Positions 29,427-38,431 of a DNA stretch of 38,807 nt are shown here, piece after piece. Each line of letters begins with the position of its first letter. The stretch's first letter is position 1. The position numbers and the translations under genes were made by a program. The notes under the pieces are model-generated. The model worked only from the letters and a program-made list of their open reading frames with translations. It was not told the origin of the DNA and searched no databases. Source of the stretch: Planctomycetota bacterium (GTDB lineage Bacteria > Planctomycetota > Planctomycetia > Planctomycetales > Planctomycetaceae); contig JAURQH010000056.1 in the NCBI GenBank assembly GCA_030836185.1, positions 1 through 38,807 of the forward strand, written 5' to 3'.

Positions 29427-29563
29427 TCGGTTGTGAAAGTTGTCTGATCCGCAAAAAACAGATGTTTCAGCGATTAGATTTCTGGTAGACTGATGAGTCC
29501 TCCATGAAGAATCAACTCTTCAGATTGAACGTCCAACCACTCACTGAGATCGAGGCCACTTTC

Positions 29564-30886
29564 ATGACTACGAAAAAATCTTCGCTTTCACGGCGTACCT
29601 TTATGGCTGGCACTGCCGGTGCGATGTCTCTGCCCTTGTTCGTTCCGAAATCAGTTCTCGGAAATGCCGAGAATGCGGCCGCCAACGATAAAATCACTCT
29701 GGGATTCATCGGCGTTGGAAAAATGGCCTACGGTTCCCATATGCCGCATTTTTTGAAAATGCCCGAAGTGAAAGTGCTCGCCGTTTGTGATGTCGATACG
29801 AATCGACGAGAAGCAGCACAGAAACGAGTCAACGATGCTTATGGCAACAAAGATTGCGATGCCTACAACGATTACGGTGATCTCTTGGCACGCGATGATA
29901 TCGACGCGGTCGTCATCGCAACTCCCGACCATTGGCATGCGTTGGTGATTCGCGATGCGGTGAAAGCCGGCAAAGATATTTATGCCGAAAAACCCCTGAC
30001 AAATAATCTCGCCGAAGCAAAAATCGTGATGGACACGGTCAAGAATTCTGAGATCATTTTCCAGACTGGTTCCCAGCAACGGGCCAGCGAAAACTTCCGT
30101 CATGCGTGCGAACTCATCCAAAACGGATACCTCGGCAAAATCAGTCGCGTGGAAGTGGGTGTCGGTGGACCGCCGTCTCCTGACAAACTGCCCGGTGAAG
30201 AAATGGAACCGGGACTCGATTGGGAACGCTGGTTGGGACCGGCTCCTATGCGAGAATACAGTTCCGTTCTCAGTCCACGGGGTGTCCACAATCATTTCCC
30301 GTCTTGGCGTAACTTCCAACCTTATGGTGGCGGTGGCATGACCGACTGGGGCGCGCATCATTTCGATATCGCCCAGTGGGGTCTCGGTATGGATGAATCG
30401 GGACCGGTAGAAATTGTCCCGCCGGAAGACCCCAAGCGAGGAAACGGCCTCAAATATATCTACGACAACGGTGTCGAACTTCTTCACGGCGGTAAGAGTG
30501 GTGTCACGTTCTTTGGCTCAGAGGGAGAATTGTTCGTCAATCGTGGAAAGCTCTCCAGCACGCCAGAAGAGATCGTCAAGATTAAACTGAAAGATGGTGA
30601 CGTGCATCTCTACAAAGCACCGGGTGGGAGTCACGGTGGACATCGCCAGGACTGGATTAACTCTGTCAAAAGTCGCAAGCAACCGAACTGCCCAATTGAA
30701 ATCGGTGCTCGCTCAGTGGCGGTCTGCCATCTTGGGAACATTGCCTATCGACATGCGGAAGAACTGGGAGGCAAGTCGTTGAAATGGGATCCGCAAGAGT
30801 GGAAGTTCGTTGGTAATGAAGCCGCCAACAAATGGCAAGATTATCCTTACGAACGTCGTGAAGGATACGAACTCGCCAAAGTCTGA
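29564..30886 (+). CDS. Tat-exported Gfo/Idh/MocA-family oxidoreductase
   Basis: A 440-residue protein with a twin-arginine signal (SRRTFMAGTAGAMSLPLFVP), followed by a Rossmann NAD(P)-binding domain. It has LGFIGVGKMAYGSHMPHF and VLAVCDVD at the start of the fold, then the EKP motif at E142-P144. GGGGMTDWGAHHFDIAQWGLG lies in the substrate-binding region, with a conserved H of the GAHHFD type. The family oxidises or reduces sugar alcohols and related compounds. Tat-exported members are very common in Planctomycetota. The enzyme's sugar is not deducible. The start at 29564 makes the Tat signal terminal; a longer frame from 29504 adds 20 unsupported residues. A strong intrinsic terminator follows 30 bp after the stop. 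Confidence 0.9.
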   Translation: MTTKKSSLSRRTFMAGTAGAMSLPLFVPKSVLGNAENAAANDKITLGFIGVGKMAYGSHMPHFLKMPEVKVLAVCDVDTNRREAAQKRVNDAYGNKDCDAYNDYGDLLARDDIDAVVIATPDHWHALVIRDAVKAGKDIYAEKPLTNNLAEAKIVMDTVKNSEIIFQTGSQQRASENFRHACELIQNGYLGKISRVEVGVGGPPSPDKLPGEEMEPGLDWERWLGPAPMREYSSVLSPRGVHNHFPSWRNFQPYGGGGMTDWGAHHFDIAQWGLGMDESGPVEIVPPEDPKRGNGLKYIYDNGVELLHGGKSGVTFFGSEGELFVNRGKLSSTPEEIVKIKLKDGDVHLYKAPGGSHGGHRQDWINSVKSRKQPNCPIEIGARSVAVCHLGNIAYRHAEELGGKSLKWDPQEWKFVGNEAANKWQDYPYERREGYELAKV

Positions 30887-30979: not shown

Positions 30980-32218
30980 ATGATGTCGGCGACTTTGAAA
31001 TACCCTGTTCTCTTTATCACAGCTTTGCTGCTGATCGCGAATCTCTCGGGCTGCGATTCTATTCCGCCCGATCAATCTGACCAGACTAGAAGCACAGCCG
31101 TAGATGAAAGCGAGTCACCGGAGTCTCCTGCGGAACCAGAACCCGAACCGACGCCTTCCGTCTTCACAGACGAAGAACTTGCGGAAGCAACCCAGATGGC
31201 TACTGATGTGGGGATCTACATTCGTAAGAACGCTCACGATCAGGTGACGGTTTTCGATACGGCCCGCAATCGCAGTTGGGTAGACGACTATCAATTGCAG
31301 GAACTGCTCAAACTGGAATACCTGGAAAATTTAACCGTAGAAGGCCCCGGCGTCACGGATCAGGCCGCCGAAGCAATTGCAAAATTACCGCGACTGACAT
31401 CGCTCACGATGAAGAACACACTGATCAGCGATGCGGGCATCGCCATGTTGGCGGATGTCAAAAGCTTGAAGATCATTGATTTACGCTTGTCGCCATTGGT
31501 GACGGATCAAACAATGCAAACTTTGGCCGAAATGCCTGCTTTGAAAGCCGTTCGTTTAAGCGGTGTGACACAGTTGAGTGATGAAGGTGTCGAAATTCTG
31601 TTGGCTTTGCCCGAGTTGAGTGAACTCGATTTACGAAACTGTCGCAATGTGACCAACACCACGATTCAGAAATTGATCGACAAAAAGACGCTGCGAACTC
31701 TGAAAATTGGTGGTGGGTCGATCAATGACGAGACTCTCAGCATCTTGTCTGAAATGACGCAACTCACCGGCTTGTCACTCGATAACTGTGATATTACCGA
31801 TGAAGGATTGCCGAAGCTCGCCGCGTTGCCAATTCGTGACCTGACAGTCTATCAGTGTTCATCGATTACCGATCATGGTGTTGCATTTCTGAAAACGTCA
31901 TCCGCCTTACAACGGCTCACACTCCGCGATTTACGAATTACTGGCTCAGTTTTGTCTGAGTTACCAAGTTCTGACAAATTGACCAGCCTCAATGTGTCTC
32001 AAACCAACTTCGGAGATGAGCAAGCCGAGCAACTTGCGAACTTGTCGAATCTTGTCGATTTGAATGTCAGTGAGACTCCATTGACCGATGCGGCCATCAC
32101 CAGTCTTTCAAAACTGACGAGTCTGAAAAATCTGATGATGACACAAACTCAAATGACAAGCGACGGCATTGAAAAACTCAAAGCGGCATTGCCCGATTGT
32201 TCGATTCGTTCGAACTAA
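30980..32218 (+). CDS. Leucine-rich-repeat lipoprotein (AMN1-type repeats)
   Basis: A 412-residue lipoprotein: MMSATLKYPVLFITALLLIANLSGC gives a signal peptide and a lipobox with the modified Cys at position 25. A Pro/Glu-rich, acidic spacer (about 30-65) follows. Then come about a dozen LRR units of the cysteine-containing, AMN1-like type, with LxxLxLxxCxxIT(D/N) patterns such as LTSLTMKNTLISDAGIAML and LSELDLRNCRNVTNTTIQKL. The repeats occupy about residues 95-405. Such proteins bind other proteins; a surface adhesion or scaffolding role is inferred. The next gene encodes another LRR lipoprotein starting 48 bp later, so the two probably form a pair. The start could be either of two adjacent ATGs. 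Confidence 0.87.
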   Translation: MMSATLKYPVLFITALLLIANLSGCDSIPPDQSDQTRSTAVDESESPESPAEPEPEPTPSVFTDEELAEATQMATDVGIYIRKNAHDQVTVFDTARNRSWVDDYQLQELLKLEYLENLTVEGPGVTDQAAEAIAKLPRLTSLTMKNTLISDAGIAMLADVKSLKIIDLRLSPLVTDQTMQTLAEMPALKAVRLSGVTQLSDEGVEILLALPELSELDLRNCRNVTNTTIQKLIDKKTLRTLKIGGGSINDETLSILSEMTQLTGLSLDNCDITDEGLPKLAALPIRDLTVYQCSSITDHGVAFLKTSSALQRLTLRDLRITGSVLSELPSSDKLTSLNVSQTNFGDEQAEQLANLSNLVDLNVSETPLTDAAITSLSKLTSLKNLMMTQTQMTSDGIEKLKAALPDCSIRSN

Positions 32219-32265
32219 TTCAACTGTCTGAACTCAACCTGTTAGCAAAATACATCGAGAATATT

Positions 32266-33144
32266 ATGCGACCTTTCATCTGTTTATCTCTGTGTGCAGT
32301 CATGTTTCTTACGGGATGTTCGGACAAGGATGAGACTTCCACGACGGAAGACGACTCCTATTCTCCTCCCGTGTTAGAAGCTCCTGCCAAAGACATGACC
32401 CGCGAGATGTCCGTCGAAGAACTGATGGAAAAGCTCGGCGTGGGCGAACGCGGTCAAGCTCAAAAAATTGGCGGCAAAATTCGCAAAGTGCGTCTGGTCC
32501 AGACCAACGTGAAAGATCTTTCGCCGTTGAAAGGTCTCGAACTGATTATGCTGGACCTCACATTTTGTTCTGTAAAAGATTTGACTCCCTTGGAAGGGAT
32601 GCCCCTCGAAGAGCTTTATCTCGAAAAAACCGATATCACGGATGATTCACTGGCAGCACTCACCGACATGCCGTTGAAGATTCTTTATCTCGGCAGTACC
32701 GAAGTGACCAATATTTCTCCGCTCTCCGGTTTGCCACTCAGGCAATTGAATCTGCTCGATGCTCCCGTGGAATCGATTCAGGGAATCGAAGAAATGCCTT
32801 TGCAAACTTTGTGGGTGCCGGGAACAAATGTCTCGGATCTCTCACCTCTCAAAGGGAAACAACTGCAATCGGTCGATATCGCGCGTTCCAAAGTCACTTC
32901 CCTTGCACCGCTGGCCGGAATGACGACTTTACAACGACTTAATATGGAAGCCATCGAAGTGACCGACCTCACTCCGTTGGAAGGGTTGCCGTTGACCCGC
33001 TTGATCTTCAATCCTGCCAAGATTGAAAAGGGTCTGGATATGGTGCGTAACATGCCGTCGCTACAGGAAGTCGGTCTCGACTTTGAATCCAAAATGCCTC
33101 CAGCACAGTTCTGGACGAAATACGATGCGGGTGAATTTCAATAA
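32266..33144 (+). CDS. Leucine-rich-repeat lipoprotein, second of a pair
   Basis: A 292-residue lipoprotein: MRPFICLSLCAVMFLTGC with the modified Cys at position 18. A short charged linker follows, then about ten LRR units of the type KDLSPLKGLELIMLDLTFC and DLTPLEGMPLEELYLEKTDIT. The chain ends with AQFWTKYDAGEF, a tail that recurs in planctomycete LRR and kinase-associated LRR proteins. The repeats are shorter and of a different subtype (SPLxGxPL) from those in the gene before it. A frame beginning at 32197 overlaps the previous stop but lacks a signal peptide; the ATG at 32266 is preferred. Co-expression with the upstream LRR gene suggests joint surface function, but no partner is known. 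Confidence 0.85.
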   Translation: MRPFICLSLCAVMFLTGCSDKDETSTTEDDSYSPPVLEAPAKDMTREMSVEELMEKLGVGERGQAQKIGGKIRKVRLVQTNVKDLSPLKGLELIMLDLTFCSVKDLTPLEGMPLEELYLEKTDITDDSLAALTDMPLKILYLGSTEVTNISPLSGLPLRQLNLLDAPVESIQGIEEMPLQTLWVPGTNVSDLSPLKGKQLQSVDIARSKVTSLAPLAGMTTLQRLNMEAIEVTDLTPLEGLPLTRLIFNPAKIEKGLDMVRNMPSLQEVGLDFESKMPPAQFWTKYDAGEFQ

Positions 33145-33261: not shown

Positions 33262-34899
33262 ATGCGTTGGATTTCATTCACATTGGCTCTGTTGGTCTCC
33301 ACTGGTAGCTCGCATCATCTTCTCTCTGCTGAGGAAAAGAACACGTTCGATTTAACGCTTCGCTCGCGCGTACCGGCCGATGCTGAGAGTGGTCTCTATC
33401 ATCATCAGTTTGAGGAACAAAAATGGACACCGACAGAGACGGCGATCATTGTTTGCGACATGTGGGATTTGCACCACTGCTACAATGCTGTCCAGCGAGA
33501 GACCGAGATGGCTCCCCGCATGAATCGTCTGCTCAAACAAGCTCGCAATTCAGGCGCAACCATTATTCATTCTCCCAGTAGCTGCATGGCTTTCTATGAA
33601 GATCACCCTGCTCGTCAGCGAGCCAAGTCGATTGTGAAAGTCGCCAATCTTCCGGAAAAAATTGGTGAGTGGTGTCACCAAATTCCTGCCGAGGAACGAG
33701 GCGTCTATCCCATCGATCAAACCGATGGTGGCGAAGACGACGATCCTGTTCAACATGCCAAGTGGGCCAAAGAACTCAAAGCGAAAGGGCTCAACCCGCG
33801 CGCTCCGTGGACTCGTCAAACCGACATGCTCACCATCGATAACGATCTCGATTTCATTAGCGACAACGGCGAAGAAATCTGGTCGATTCTGGAAAGAAAC
33901 AAACTCAAAAATGTGATGCTCGTCGGCGTACACACCAACATGTGCGTTCTCGGGCGTCCCTTCGGATTACGTCAGATGGCTCAGAACGGAAAGAACGTCG
34001 TCCTCGTTCGCGACATGACCGACACGATGTACAATCCGGGTGCGTGGCCTTACGTCTCTCATTTCACGGGGACGGACTTGATTATCGAGCACATCGAAAA
34101 GTTCGTTTGCCCCACCGTGACCTCGGCAATGATTATTGGTGGAGACGAATTTCGTTTCCAAAACGATACCCGCCCTCACTTGGCCGTCGTGATTGCCGAA
34201 GATGAGTATCGGACGAATGAAACATTACTCCCGTTCGTCAAACATCAGTTAGGGAAAAGATTTCGGACCACAATTTTGCACGGCAGCAAAAAGACGCGCA
34301 ACGACATTCCCAATCTGCATTTGATTGATGATGCCGACGTGTTGATGATCAGCGTGCGTCGTCGCCCATTGCCGGCCGAGCAATTATCACATATTCAAGA
34401 GTTTGAAGCGGCCGGGAAACCGATGATCGGCATTCGTACGGCCTCGCATCCCTTTCATTTGAGGAAGAAACCAGCTCCCGAAGGACTGGCCGATTGGCCG
34501 ACGTTTGATGCCGATGTGTGGGGTGGTAATTACTCAAACCATTATGGTAACGGCCCTGTGACAAAAGTTTCTGTGGCTGTCGGCGCGAAAGATCACGCGA
34601 TGTTGAAGTCTGTCGATGTCGATACCATGACCAGCAAAGGTTCATTGTATGTTGTTCGCCCGCTTGCCAAGAAAGCCACACCTGTTCTGATGGGTGCGAT
34701 CCCAGATGAAGAATCGGAACCGATCGCGTGGACCAACATCCGAAAGAACGGCGGCAAATCGTTTTATACGTCACTCGGATACATCGGAAACTTCGAACAG
34801 CCCGCGTTCGTTCAATTTCTGGCTAATGCAGTCCATTGGGCTGTCGGTTTGCCGACCCCCGCCAACATTAAGAATCCCACCTCCACTTCCAAAGAGTGA
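33262..34899 (+). CDS. Exported isochorismatase-ThuA fusion protein
   Basis: A 545-residue protein with a signal peptide (FTLALLVSTGSSHHLLSA). Residues about 45-270 are a cysteine-hydrolase (isochorismatase-like) domain. TAIIVCDMWDLHHC gives the catalytic Asp (D66), and MLVGVHTNMCVLGRP gives the nucleophile C228, with downstream VLVRDMTDTMY. I cannot place the usual catalytic Lys with confidence; the matching stretch reads PWTRQTDML. Residues about 290-520 resemble the ThuA-like domain, a class I glutamine-amidotransferase fold used in trehalose or sugar utilisation, with LAVVIAEDEYRTNETLLPFV and ISVRRRPLPAEQL. The dehydrogenase gene begins 11 bp after the stop, so the two are almost surely co-transcribed. 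The substrate is unknown. Confidence 0.85.
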   Translation: MRWISFTLALLVSTGSSHHLLSAEEKNTFDLTLRSRVPADAESGLYHHQFEEQKWTPTETAIIVCDMWDLHHCYNAVQRETEMAPRMNRLLKQARNSGATIIHSPSSCMAFYEDHPARQRAKSIVKVANLPEKIGEWCHQIPAEERGVYPIDQTDGGEDDDPVQHAKWAKELKAKGLNPRAPWTRQTDMLTIDNDLDFISDNGEEIWSILERNKLKNVMLVGVHTNMCVLGRPFGLRQMAQNGKNVVLVRDMTDTMYNPGAWPYVSHFTGTDLIIEHIEKFVCPTVTSAMIIGGDEFRFQNDTRPHLAVVIAEDEYRTNETLLPFVKHQLGKRFRTTILHGSKKTRNDIPNLHLIDDADVLMISVRRRPLPAEQLSHIQEFEAAGKPMIGIRTASHPFHLRKKPAPEGLADWPTFDADVWGGNYSNHYGNGPVTKVSVAVGAKDHAMLKSVDVDTMTSKGSLYVVRPLAKKATPVLMGAIPDEESEPIAWTNIRKNGGKSFYTSLGYIGNFEQPAFVQFLANAVHWAVGLPTPANIKNPTSTSKE

Positions 34900-34909
34900 A
34901 AGTCCCGCC

Positions 34910-37900
34910 ATGCGACTGATGAGTTTGATCACTACTCTCGTGCTCTCCTGCGCTCTGTTTGTTTCGGCACAAGATCCAAATATTGCTCCACCCAATGAAG
35001 ACGCCTATCAGGAATGGACTTTGATGAGAGTCCCCGGTACTTGGGATGAAAATTCAGGTGGCGACCTACGCGAGTACGATGGTTTCGCCTGGTATCGTTG
35101 TACGTTGCGACTCCCCGGGAACTGGGAGAAAGGAAACGATGTCGAACTCTTCGTGCCGAAGGTGGATAACGCACACGAAGCCTACTTTAACGGTGTGAAA
35201 ATCGGCGGCGCGGGCAAGTTTCCTCCCGCCTACGAAAGTGGACTCGCGCAAGAAAATACCTACAAGATTCCCGAATCGGCCAAGCATCGCAGCAAAGACA
35301 ACATCATTGCGATTCGTGTCTTTGATCATGATGGGCGTGGGGGATTCAAGTCGGTAGCCCCGGTCCTCCGCAAGGGAGAACAAGCCATCAATCTCGATGG
35401 ACGTTGGGAGTTCCGATTGGGGGATGATGTTGAATGGTCCAAAGGGCCAATTGAAGTCACCGCGGCAGCCGAGTATTGGCGCGTCTTTTCTTGGGAAGAA
35501 GCACTCGCCAACGCGGCAGGTACCGATCCTCCATTACCGCCCACAGAAGCGATTAAGACATTCACCGTTCCCGAAGATCTCGAACTCGAATTTGTCCTCG
35601 CCGAGCCGCAAGTGCAACAGCCGCTATTTATGAACTTTGACGAGCGAGGCCGATTGTGGGTGATGAACTATCGTCAGTATCCCGATCCTGCGGGGCTCAA
35701 GATGGTCAGCCGGGATGATTTTTGGCGTTCGGTGTATGACAAACTTCCCCAGCCACCGCCCAATCACACTCCGGGAGCCGACCGCATTACGATTCACGAA
35801 GACACCAATGGCGATGGCAAATACGACAAACATAAAACATTCATTGATGGATTGAGTATCGCGTCTTCGTTCGCCAAAGGACGTGGTGGAGTTTTTGTGT
35901 TGAATCCTCCGTATCTCCTCTTCTATCCCGACAAAGATAACGACGACGTTCCGGATGGGGATCCAGAAGTGTTACTACAAGGTTTCGGCATGGAAGACAC
36001 GCACTCGGTCGCCAACTCTCTGCGCTGGGGGCCAGATGGTTGGTTGTATGCCGGGCAAGGAAGTACCGTATCCGGGAACATTCGTAAGCCGGGCGATGAC
36101 AAACATGCGGTGCATTCGATGGGGCAACTGATCTGGAGATATCATCCCGAAAAACGCATCTACGAAATCTTCGCCGAAGGTGGAGGCAACACTTTCGGCG
36201 TCGAAATCGATTCGCAAGGCCGAATCTTCTCGGGTCACAACGGTGGCGACACTCGTGGCTTTCATTATGTACAAGGGGGCTACTACCGAAAGGGCTTCGG
36301 CAAGCATGGCCCGCTCTCGAACCCTTACACGTTTGGATATTTCAACAATATGACGCATCACAGCGTCCCGCGTTTCACGCATAACTTCGTCATCTATGAT
36401 GGAGAGCCCGGTTGGTGTCATACTCTTCCCGAGAAATATCATGGCAAGTTGTTTGGAGTCGAGCCGATGCAGGGTCAGGTCGTCATGTCCTCGTTTGAAC
36501 CGGAAGGATCATCGTTCAAAACCGAAGATATCAGCCGTCCGATTCTCTCGGAAGATCGACGCTTTCGCCCCGTTGATATTAAAGTGGGGCCTGATGGTGC
36601 GATTTATGTGGCCGATTTTTATGAACCGCAGATCAGTCATCGCGAACACTTTGCGGGTCAGATTGATCGATCAAACGGTCGCGTTGTCCGGTTGAAAGCG
36701 AAAGGCTCAACGCCGTTACCTCCCTTCGATATGAACAAAGTCGACAGTGCAGGCTTGGTGAAGACATTACTTAAAGGGAATCGGTGGTTCCGTCAGACTG
36801 CACTTCGTCTGCTCGCCGACCGACAGGACCAAAGTGTTTTGCCGCAACTCAAACAACAGATCGCCAGTTTGGGAGAACAGACTCGCGTCGATTTTCTGTG
36901 GGCCGTCTATCAACTGGGTGGATTGACCGACGAATACGCTGGCGAATTGCTCGCACATGATAATCCTTACATCCGCTTATGGACGGTGCGTTTGTTGGCC
37001 GATGAGAAAAAGGTCTCTCCAGCCGTTGCCTATAAACTGGCCGACTTAGCCCGAGCAGAACCGAACATCGAAGTGCGCAGCCAATTGGCTTGCTCGGCAA
37101 AACGATTGCCCGCCGATCAGGCGTTGCCGATTGTCGCCAGTCTGCTCACTCATCAGGAAGACGTCGACGACATCCACATCCCTCTTCTTTTGTGGTGGGC
37201 GTTGGAAGACAAATCAGACATCGCCGGGCAGGATGTGGTCAACCTTTTTGAAGACGACAGTTTCTGGGGAAATCGGATTGTTGCCGAGACCATTGCCGAG
37301 CGATTGATGCGACGCTTCGCTCTCTCGGGCACTCGCCAGGAACTGGTTCTCGCCGCACGATTACTCAATCTCGCACCCGATGATCAATCGCAAAAAAAGT
37401 TGCTGGCCGGATTCGAGGAAGCATTCAAAGGACGATCTCTTTCCGGCTTGCCGGAGGAATTGACGGCTGCACTCACAAAAGCGGGTGGTGGTTCTTTGGC
37501 ATTACAGATTCGACAAGGTAACGCGGAAGCAATTGCGACCGGTTTGCAACAGATCGCCGATCAGAAGACGGCTAAATCAGACCGTATCGAATTGGTGAAT
37601 ACATTTGGCGAGATCGAGCAAGCCAATGCTCTCCCCGTTTTGCTGTCTTTGTTGGAATCGGCTGAAGAGACCGAACTTCTGGCGGCCACGCTTTCTGCCG
37701 TACAAAGTTATTCAGACGCAAAAATTGGAACCGCCATCATCAATCGGTATGACGAATTCGATGTCGATGCTCGTGAAATAGCCCAGGCAGTTCTATCGAG
37801 CCGAAAAACATGGAGCCTGCAACTGTTGCAAGCGGTCTCCGAAGGTCGGGTAGATAAAACGTCGCTGCCTCTGGACGTCATTCGCAAAATGACGATTCAC

Positions 37901-38431
37901 AACGACCCTCAATTGTCGCAATTGATTACTCAACATTGGCAGGATTTGGAAGGTGCCTCGTCTGCCGAAATGCAGCAACAGATTCAGAAAGTCTCAACAC
38001 TCATCAAAGGAGATTCGGGCGATCCCTACAAAGGGAAAGTTCTCTTCAAAGGAAGTTGCGGGAAATGCCATCTCTTATATGGAGAAGGAGGCCGCATCGG
38101 TCCCGACCTCACCTCGTACAAAAGAGACGACACATTGCGAATTCTACTCAATGTTGTGAATCCTTCTGCCGAGGTTCGTGAAGGGTTTGAAACGGTTTCG
38201 GTGATCACCGACGACGGCCGCGTGTTAAACGGCTTTCTGGCCGACCAGGACAATCGTGTCGTCGTGATTCGCGGAGCCGATGGGCAATCTGTGACGGTTT
38301 CCCGTGATGAGATCGACGAGATGGTGCCTCAGAAAAAATCACTGATGCCTGAAGGGTTACTCTCGAAAATGAGTGATCAGGAAATTCGCGATCTGTTCGC
38401 GTACCTCCGTGGCTCGCAACCAATCAATTAA
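34910..38431 (+). CDS. PVC-type membrane-bound dehydrogenase with cytochrome c domain
   Basis: A 1173-residue exported protein starting with a signal peptide (LMSLITTLVLSCALFVSA). Residues about 25-200 resemble the galactose-binding-like jelly roll of glycoside hydrolases (VPGTWDENSGGD...WYRCTLRLPGNWEKGNDVELFV). A beta-propeller of the PVC dehydrogenase family follows (about 218-590), beginning FTVPEDLELEFVLAEPQ. It includes FMNFDERGRLWVMNYRQYPDP and NSLRWGPDGWLYAGQGS. HEAT-like helical repeats span about 600-1030. The C-terminus is a cytochrome c domain with heme motif CGKCH at C1050-H1054. Family members are thought to pass electrons from an oxidised carbohydrate to heme; the substrate is unproven. 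The ATG at 34910 gives the signal peptide. It is coupled to the isochorismatase-ThuA gene. Confidence 0.9.
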   Translation: MRLMSLITTLVLSCALFVSAQDPNIAPPNEDAYQEWTLMRVPGTWDENSGGDLREYDGFAWYRCTLRLPGNWEKGNDVELFVPKVDNAHEAYFNGVKIGGAGKFPPAYESGLAQENTYKIPESAKHRSKDNIIAIRVFDHDGRGGFKSVAPVLRKGEQAINLDGRWEFRLGDDVEWSKGPIEVTAAAEYWRVFSWEEALANAAGTDPPLPPTEAIKTFTVPEDLELEFVLAEPQVQQPLFMNFDERGRLWVMNYRQYPDPAGLKMVSRDDFWRSVYDKLPQPPPNHTPGADRITIHEDTNGDGKYDKHKTFIDGLSIASSFAKGRGGVFVLNPPYLLFYPDKDNDDVPDGDPEVLLQGFGMEDTHSVANSLRWGPDGWLYAGQGSTVSGNIRKPGDDKHAVHSMGQLIWRYHPEKRIYEIFAEGGGNTFGVEIDSQGRIFSGHNGGDTRGFHYVQGGYYRKGFGKHGPLSNPYTFGYFNNMTHHSVPRFTHNFVIYDGEPGWCHTLPEKYHGKLFGVEPMQGQVVMSSFEPEGSSFKTEDISRPILSEDRRFRPVDIKVGPDGAIYVADFYEPQISHREHFAGQIDRSNGRVVRLKAKGSTPLPPFDMNKVDSAGLVKTLLKGNRWFRQTALRLLADRQDQSVLPQLKQQIASLGEQTRVDFLWAVYQLGGLTDEYAGELLAHDNPYIRLWTVRLLADEKKVSPAVAYKLADLARAEPNIEVRSQLACSAKRLPADQALPIVASLLTHQEDVDDIHIPLLLWWALEDKSDIAGQDVVNLFEDDSFWGNRIVAETIAERLMRRFALSGTRQELVLAARLLNLAPDDQSQKKLLAGFEEAFKGRSLSGLPEELTAALTKAGGGSLALQIRQGNAEAIATGLQQIADQKTAKSDRIELVNTFGEIEQANALPVLLSLLESAEETELLAATLSAVQSYSDAKIGTAIINRYDEFDVDAREIAQAVLSSRKTWSLQLLQAVSEGRVDKTSLPLDVIRKMTIHNDPQLSQLITQHWQDLEGASSAEMQQQIQKVSTLIKGDSGDPYKGKVLFKGSCGKCHLLYGEGGRIGPDLTSYKRDDTLRILLNVVNPSAEVREGFETVSVITDDGRVLNGFLADQDNRVVVIRGADGQSVTVSRDEIDEMVPQKKSLMPEGLLSKMSDQEIRDLFAYLRGSQPIN

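Follow-up and report, generated by a model that had tools for sequence, protein, structure and literature searches.

An isochorismatase-fold-ThuA fusion and a propeller-heme c protein as putative halves of a carbohydrate-processing unit in PVC bacteria

Introduction

Which reaction could be shared by a hydrolase-like protein and the long propeller-heme protein encoded directly downstream of it? The question is raised by two genes near the end of contig JAURQH010000056.1 from the Planctomycetota bacterium assembly GCA_030836185.1. The window, as we call the stretch of DNA analyzed here, is this whole contig of 38,807 nucleotides (contig C32 of a 5.16 Mb draft genome in 107 contigs that is 97.9% complete). 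Gene A (33262..34899, + strand, from an ATG at 33262 to a stop at 34899) codes for a 545-residue fusion of an isochorismatase-fold domain to a ThuA domain, and gene B (34910..38431, + strand, from an ATG at 34910 to a stop at 38431) for a 1173-residue protein combining a beta-sandwich, a six-bladed propeller, a region with HEAT repeats and a c-type heme domain. The two genes lie head to tail on the + strand with 10 bases between them (34900..34909), and the contig ends 376 bases past gene B. We propose, at a probability of roughly 0.4, that A and B, as its two halves, make up a single carbohydrate-processing unit, exported and probably periplasmic, in bacteria of the Planctomycetota-Verrucomicrobiota-Chlamydiota (PVC) group, namely a hydrolase-oxidase with an electron exit through heme c.

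Results and discussion

A and B are associated beyond chance

In some relatives the two proteins form a single chain, in the order isochorismatase fold, ThuA, (sandwich), propeller, HEAT and heme c. Across 109 distinct A loci, eleven code for A and B as one such polypeptide with a propeller 60-68% identical to that of the window; nine of these run from the isochorismatase fold to the heme, one (L178) begins at the edge of a contig, and one (L179) is cut by a contig end after the propeller. B lies directly downstream of A in five more of the 109, three in the window's genus and two in Mariniblastus, and is the third gene from A in one (Aquisphaera). The A-B order is the same in both other genomes of the genus, where the proteins are 94 and 83% (A) and 93 and 83% (B) identical to those of the window. 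Since only the best 80 were retained out of at least 584 confirmed relatives, the 109 loci cover the closer members of the family; among these 80, the record titles of 77 name a planctomycete or verrucomicrobial taxon and those of three only a "bacterium", which does not imply confinement to PVC bacteria. They were reached from 117 A genes by dropping eight duplicates (same last 300 residues), with near-copies remaining in four cases (L116/L119, L077/L141, L143/L144 and the window/L034). Included in the set are an isochorismatase-sandwich protein without ThuA (L070) and a permuted ThuA-isochorismatase protein (L071); absent from the counts are L056, L072, L089, L096, L136, L138 and L172, six of which carry the isochorismatase domain by scans.

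On a tree of the A proteins (quick search, SH-aLRT support only, midpoint root, 108 rows with the short L070 omitted) the fused state requires seven gains or losses, six of them forced by well-supported branches, and the fused rows include metagenome-assembled genomes of a Phycisphaera (L140) and of a member of the Verrucomicrobiaceae (L150). An old fusion that split or was lost several times could explain this pattern, as could several separate fusion events. A and B also co-occur: across 59 genomes, 27 have both, 12 A only, four B only and 16 neither (Fisher p 7e-4, uncorrected for kinship), and with the fused and adjacent genomes removed the counts become 16, 12, 4 and 16 (p 0.017, likewise uncorrected). 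The underlying table scored 12 candidates per genome at thresholds that we set ourselves, counting A as present when both domains fell in one match and B from about 47% identity upward with the sandwich and from 49% upward without it, cut pieces included. The A-B link is thus more than chance.

The original prediction held that the two belong together and that the pair would be conserved. The first claim is borne out by the fusions, adjacencies and co-occurrence; as to the second, the state of separate neighboring genes is a minority one. No B-type gene was found in the stretch examined at 92 of the 109 A loci; seven of these have only distant propeller paralogs (24-29% identity) nearby, and 62 of the other 85 extend at least 4 kb downstream. 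At the threshold used, B-type genes are likewise missing from 12 of the 39 genomes that have A; nine of these 12 have propellers at 37-46% identity and three none at E 1e-120. Given these loci and genomes, A can work without B.

It might then be argued that A is an independent hydrolase and B one of many propeller-heme proteins, their neighborhood and fusions reflecting the shuffling of promiscuous modules. Such shuffling would fit the presence in the window genome of at least 18 propeller-heme proteins besides B (L250-L266), some of the six scanned carrying GDSL lipase, ThuA, ceramidase-like, F5/8 or plastocyanin-like (copper-binding) domains, as well as the 77 of 109 A proteins that have no extra domain. 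However, whether fused or paired, A has as its partner a member of one specific clade, with propellers 60-100% identical to that of the window, rather than a random paralog; the co-occurrence across genomes and the six to seven changes of the fused state on the tree also count against shuffling, which we regard as an unlikely account. Because some relatives join the two into one long protein, A and B probably work together on a sugar-type substrate.

Gene A has a lysine-free cysteine-hydrolase-like site

Both halves of the A protein score above their Pfam cut-offs (PF00857, 39.1 bits against 27; PF06283 ThuA, 45 bits against 33.4), and an AlphaFold model built with 21 aligned homologs (mean pLDDT 84) agrees with the original prediction of a cysteine-hydrolase fold joined to a ThuA-like domain. 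The N-terminal half of the model, with the isochorismatase/cysteine-hydrolase-fold domain at residues 26-300 (33337..34161, + strand), resembles RutB (8blm; Z 16.2, root-mean-square deviation (rmsd) 3.7, 181 residues aligned), TrtA (Z 15.1) and BiuH (Z 14.8), whereas the C-terminal half, with the ThuA domain at residues 301-535 (34162..34866, + strand), resembles the ThuA-like 4e5v (Z 20.0, rmsd 3.2, 223 aligned) and 1t0b (Z 18.1). Sequence comparison of A with solved structures gave weak matches with a profile (best E 0.004) and no match at E 0.1 with the single sequence. Residues 1-23 (33262..33330, + strand) were judged by eye to form a signal-peptide-like N-terminus, residues 1-24 having a pLDDT below 50, and residues 1-21 of B (34910..34972, + strand) were judged likewise; both proteins would thus be exported, as had been anticipated for A.

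Two residues had been singled out in advance as catalytic, and both are invariant. A profile comparison with 12 canonical relatives (97% probability) places D66 (codon 33457..33459, + strand) at the catalytic Asp and C228 (codon 33943..33945, + strand) at the catalytic Cys; among the A homologs D66 is present in 108 of 108 rows having the column and C228 in 109 of 109. An assembled catalytic triad had been set beforehand as the test of this domain, and here the result is negative, as the Lys is not conserved. The same 12 Lys-bearing relatives place the canonical Lys within residues 193-196 of A, columns that vary across the 109 homologs: position 196 holds R in 35 rows and K in 20, and the window protein has L there. 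A K occurs somewhere in about residues 191-198 in 39 of the 109 rows, spread over more than one column, and the window protein has neither Lys nor Arg at residues 190-203. The 12 relatives were picked by eye for the Lys motif from 27 stretches drawn from 30 loci, leaving out nine that were apparently out of frame and six of other subfamilies.

The loss of the catalytic Lys would be expected of a dead cysteine hydrolase retained for binding or assembly. We consider this improbable, since a dead domain would hardly need the invariant residues of this clade: in addition to C228 and D66, eleven further polar residues are unchanged in about 109 sequences from two phyla, namely H71, R79, R95 and H103 (108/108) and D197, H224, N226, R232, D251, D254 and H267 (109/109). 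Because these residues are invariant wherever the column is present, the site appears to be under strong selection, and the conservation points to a divergent lysine-free branch of the cysteine hydrolases as opposed to an eroded one.

Seven residues of the ThuA part (R392, T393, H396, W412, D416, Y424 and Y463) are likewise invariant, in 107 of 107 rows, and its elbow (GIRTASH) is, by eye, without a Cys. ThuA-like folds have been reported as sugar-binding modules, in Agd3 and in a levan-binding protein (PMC7229062, PMC7618045), and as the scaffold of the iron amidase dimethylformamidase (PMC7686228), so that the ThuA half of A may by analogy either bind or act.

The propeller of B and the cofactor question

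The four modules predicted for B were all recovered. Its propeller (residues 206-600; 35525..36709, + strand) scores 244 bits against TIGR02604 (cut-off 122) and 238 bits against DUF7133 (cut-off 27), and the region with HEAT repeats (residues 601-1036; 36710..38017, + strand) has a HEAT_2 match of 29.4 bits (cut-off 27.7; PF13646 at residues 679-751). The c-type heme domain (38018..38428, + strand) scores 122 bits against TIGR02603 (cut-off 68) and has a CxxCH motif at 38057-38071, which together with the TIGR02604 score makes B a full member, by score, of the PVC-type heme-binding CxxCH proteins. The N-terminal sandwich (residues about 33-185; 35006..35464, + strand) falls under the Pfam cut-off (PF13364, 19.6 against 23 bits) and was recognized by profile: over this part a profile of B homologs matches a carbohydrate esterase of solved structure (E 2.6e-19) and a sialate O-acetylesterase (E 1.8e-17). 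It is similar to the equivalent region of carbohydrate esterases, sialate esterases and GH2 enzymes (profile matches 9h4u, 9ega and GH2 enzymes), suggesting a GH2-type sugar-binding-like sandwich.

The heme domain matches that of Kustd1711 at 65 bits with the axial Met in register (M1146, codon 38345-38347), and C1050, C1053, H1054 and M1146 are conserved in 42 of 42 sequences. The hemes of Kustd1711 have reported potentials of about +350 mV (PMC11791136).

A model of the sandwich and propeller (24 homologs, pLDDT 80, with model residues 418-460 below 50) puts the propeller closest in fold to PQQ sugar dehydrogenases. All of its top 15 fold rows belong to AA12, soluble glucose dehydrogenase (sGDH), ASD or glucose-dehydrogenase entries (Z 22.1-24.2), including AA12 6h7t (Z 24.2, rmsd 3.3, 287 aligned), CcPDH 6jt5 (Z 23.8) and sGDH 1qbi (Z 23.4). 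Next in fold comes the hedgehog-interacting protein, a binding propeller, at Z 21.5. The dehydrogenases of this fold raise the question of the usual cofactor, pyrroloquinoline quinone (PQQ). A PQQ-binding Arg (Arg430 of CcPDH, R228 of sGDH) has its place in B filled by Gly426 in 24 of 24 sequences; the correspondence was drawn from a motif together with a weak profile match (probability 21%). In CcPDH, Arg430, Asn431 and His363 are reported to lie at the quinone (PMC6881789), and their B counterparts by this correspondence are Gly426, Asn427 and His365, each in 24 of 24 sequences, although by spacing H365 is one residue out of register with His144 of sGDH and His363 of CcPDH. Other propellers of this class in the same genome have R, S, T, V or A at the place of the Arg.

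The genes for making PQQ are also nearly absent from the hosts. Matches above the cut-off were found for pqqE in one of 59 genomes and for pqqC in one of 58; the two occur together only in G009, on one contig (C724:2154-4394), although PQQ-fold propellers abound, and the 97.9%-complete draft of the window genome has no PQQ gene over the cut-off. Weaker radical-SAM matches to pqqE are present in 59 of 59 genomes, and the pqqC and pqqE cut-offs were passed in none of 14 control genomes. In the Pfam scan of B neither PF07995 nor PF22807 was listed up to E 1; PF22807 matched none of the genomes, controls included. With the Gly at the place of the Arg and pqqE over the cut-off in so few genomes, the propeller is not assured of a part in redox chemistry. 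On the same two grounds we rejected the filing of B as a member of the PQQ enzymes, keeping them as systems that it may work like.

A non-dehydrogenase propeller has therefore to be weighed. A and B would still belong together, with the propeller binding or hydrolyzing and the heme taking electrons from another protein or acting as a redox switch or anchor. The Gly and the scarcity of pqqC and pqqE speak for such a role, as do the closeness in fold of the hedgehog-interacting protein and the gluconolactonase propellers that fill the slot of B in nine of 109 A proteins (see below). It has to contend with the uniformly dehydrogenase-like best fold rows, with a heme in the same chain, with H365 and N427 lying, by the same motif and weak profile match, at or near the catalytic His and a PQQ-side Asn of sGDH in 24 of 24 sequences, and with the fact that PQQ can be taken up from outside. 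We judge it possible while somewhat unlikely, and prefer the hydrolase-oxidase.

A swappable slot and a carbohydrate theme

The domain composition of the A proteins bears on the substrate. While 77 of the 109 consist of isochorismatase fold and ThuA only, ten add a sandwich, eleven add the propeller (ten of these with HEAT and heme, five with a detected sandwich), one is the isochorismatase-sandwich protein, one is the ThuA-isochorismatase permutation, and in nine an SMP-30/gluconolactonase domain occupies the place of B, with a sandwich in eight and none detected in one (L054, L066, L067, L068, L103, L106, L111, L112 and L129). The permuted arrangement is represented by L071:8325-9824 and L226:7740-9413. 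The lactonases were called by Pfam in L054 and L067 and in the other seven by a profile built from these proteins; all nine lie in one 23-row branch of the A tree (support 93), which they share with sandwich-only forms. They keep the E, N and D motifs that we take to be the metal ligands of the SMP-30/gluconolactonase family. That one slot can hold either a dehydrogenase-like partner or a lactonase may reflect sugar-acid chemistry, or the fit may be only structural, both being propellers.

The same components meet again elsewhere, in the loci of a second clade and in chains of another order. A second, more distant isochorismatase-fold clade (about 365 residues, signal-like N-termini, and by eye a His-Pro-Trp motif where the A clade has its Asp) has both a polysaccharide deacetylase and a B-like propeller-heme protein nearby in six loci: four of the 12 fetched for the clade (L210, L211, L212 and L218) and two of the 20 fetched for B-like propellers (L283 and L285). 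The deacetylase was assigned by Pfam in three of these and by profile in three, and a LysR gene intervenes in L212 and an opposite-strand frame in L283. The clade is present in 11 of the 12 loci fetched for it, and seven of these 11 show no B-like gene. ThuA in turn ends propeller-HEAT-heme-ThuA chains in four relatives (L228, 8249-12013; L279, L280 and L281). In three of these four the gene is followed by a same-strand gene of 630-646 codons. Together, the sandwich of sugar-binding type, the gluconolactonase swap, the second clade near a polysaccharide deacetylase and the fusion of ThuA to three of the 18 propeller-heme proteins found besides B in the window genome suggest a carbohydrate theme for the unit.

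A putative hydrolase-oxidase with a heme exit

We posit that in the hydrolase-oxidase formed by A and B the ThuA domain and the sandwich would hold a sugar or oligosaccharide, of which the cysteine-hydrolase-fold domain would open an acyl bond (amide, ester or lactone) at a lysine-free site with C228 as nucleophile and D66 as base, built of the clade's own invariant residues. The sGDH/AA12-fold propeller would then oxidize the sugar product, and the electrons would pass within B to heme c, with a His and, by alignment, a Met as its ligands, and from there to a periplasmic cytochrome and oxidase. The variable Lys, the Gly at the PQQ-binding place, the near absence of PQQ genes, the many A loci and genomes without B, the reports of ThuA-like folds as plain sugar-binding modules and the second-clade loci without a B-like gene all count against this scheme. 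The original prediction, a carbohydrate- or amide-processing redox unit, was in retrospect a fair guess. Its carbohydrate side gains from the gluconolactonase fusions and the polysaccharide deacetylase near the second clade, whereas its dehydrogenase side rests on fold, with Gly for Arg and PQQ genes nearly absent; it is to be corrected in that an assembled Asp-Lys-Cys triad is lacking and nothing points to the usual quinone cofactor.

An alternative chemistry, the 3-ketoglycoside route with DUF1080 and ThuA/ThuB, was considered (PMC9007349) and remains a lead; no DUF1080 was found in A, B or 10 other window proteins scanned, the rest of the genome not having been searched. A more far-reaching conception, which we advance as doubtful, is that of a machine that hydrolyzes, oxidizes and exports electrons, made of one or two chains in PVC bacteria, with a lysine-free cysteine-hydrolase site and a non-PQQ propeller, and representing one of a large propeller-heme class with interchangeable hydrolytic heads. 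The window genome has at least 19 propeller-heme proteins including B, for which we found no assigned reaction. Fusions in two phyla link one clade among such proteins to a defined hydrolase-like partner, and this link makes the A-B pair a good handle on their substrates and cofactor, the latter question arising in hosts seemingly unable to make PQQ. Moreover, the fused homologs offer a single chain for expression.

Genomic surroundings

The search for an operon beyond the A-B pair led to no candidate, the commonest neighbors within four genes of the 117 A genes being generic planctomycete families; a DUF1501 cluster is near A at 23 loci and a cluster that is sulfatase-like by eye at 14 (copies included). 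Around A and B, matches resembling promoters or terminators either fall within genes or are at or close to the level of chance. A PLP-dependent decarboxylase lies directly downstream of A in L131 (9596-11194), L147, L148 and L153 (PF00282 in the one scanned). In the window, two leucine-rich-repeat proteins are encoded just upstream of A (30980-33144), the nearer of which adjoins A in each of the three genomes from the window's genus and only in that genus. Four genes before B, at 29504-30886, is a Gfo/Idh/MocA oxidoreductase, a relative of which adjoins B divergently in L162 and convergently in L167; as planctomycetes commonly carry such genes, its proximity to B is likely chance.

Comparison with known systems

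All the domains of the unit are already known, whereas the open-licence literature searched yielded no account of the unit itself, of its fusions, of the lactonase swap or of the lysine-free clade. With the ureidoacrylate, triuret and biuret cysteine hydrolases RutB, TrtA and BiuH, A shares the fold and the Asp and Cys of the triad; it differs from them in having no conserved Lys, a signal-like N-terminus and a fused ThuA domain, and from the 12 canonical relatives in two insertions, a long one from about residue 113 to 182 and LGRPF following the Cys. The ThuA-like proteins (1t0b, 4e5v and 4jqs; PF06283) share the fold and family score of its C-terminal half, but in A this half is joined to an isochorismatase fold and its elbow is the Cys-free GIRTASH. 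For B, the closest likeness in fold is to the AA12 CcPDH of Coprinopsis and to sGDH, with which it shares the six-bladed propeller (Z 23-24); CcPDH too is reported to join its propeller to a cytochrome (PMC6881789). In contrast to these two, B has Gly at one PQQ-binding Arg place, a HEAT region and a host without PQQ genes over the cut-off, and its heme is c-type rather than the b-type of CcPDH. Kustd1711, the calcium-tuned diheme cytochrome of Kuenenia (7zs0), has the heme domain of B with the axial Met in register, but is a separate 316-residue diheme protein without a propeller. Finally, among the PVC-type heme-binding CxxCH proteins (TIGR02604 and TIGR02603), of which it is a full member by score, B stands apart as a specific clade, mostly with a GH2-like sandwich, that is tied to the isochorismatase-ThuA proteins.

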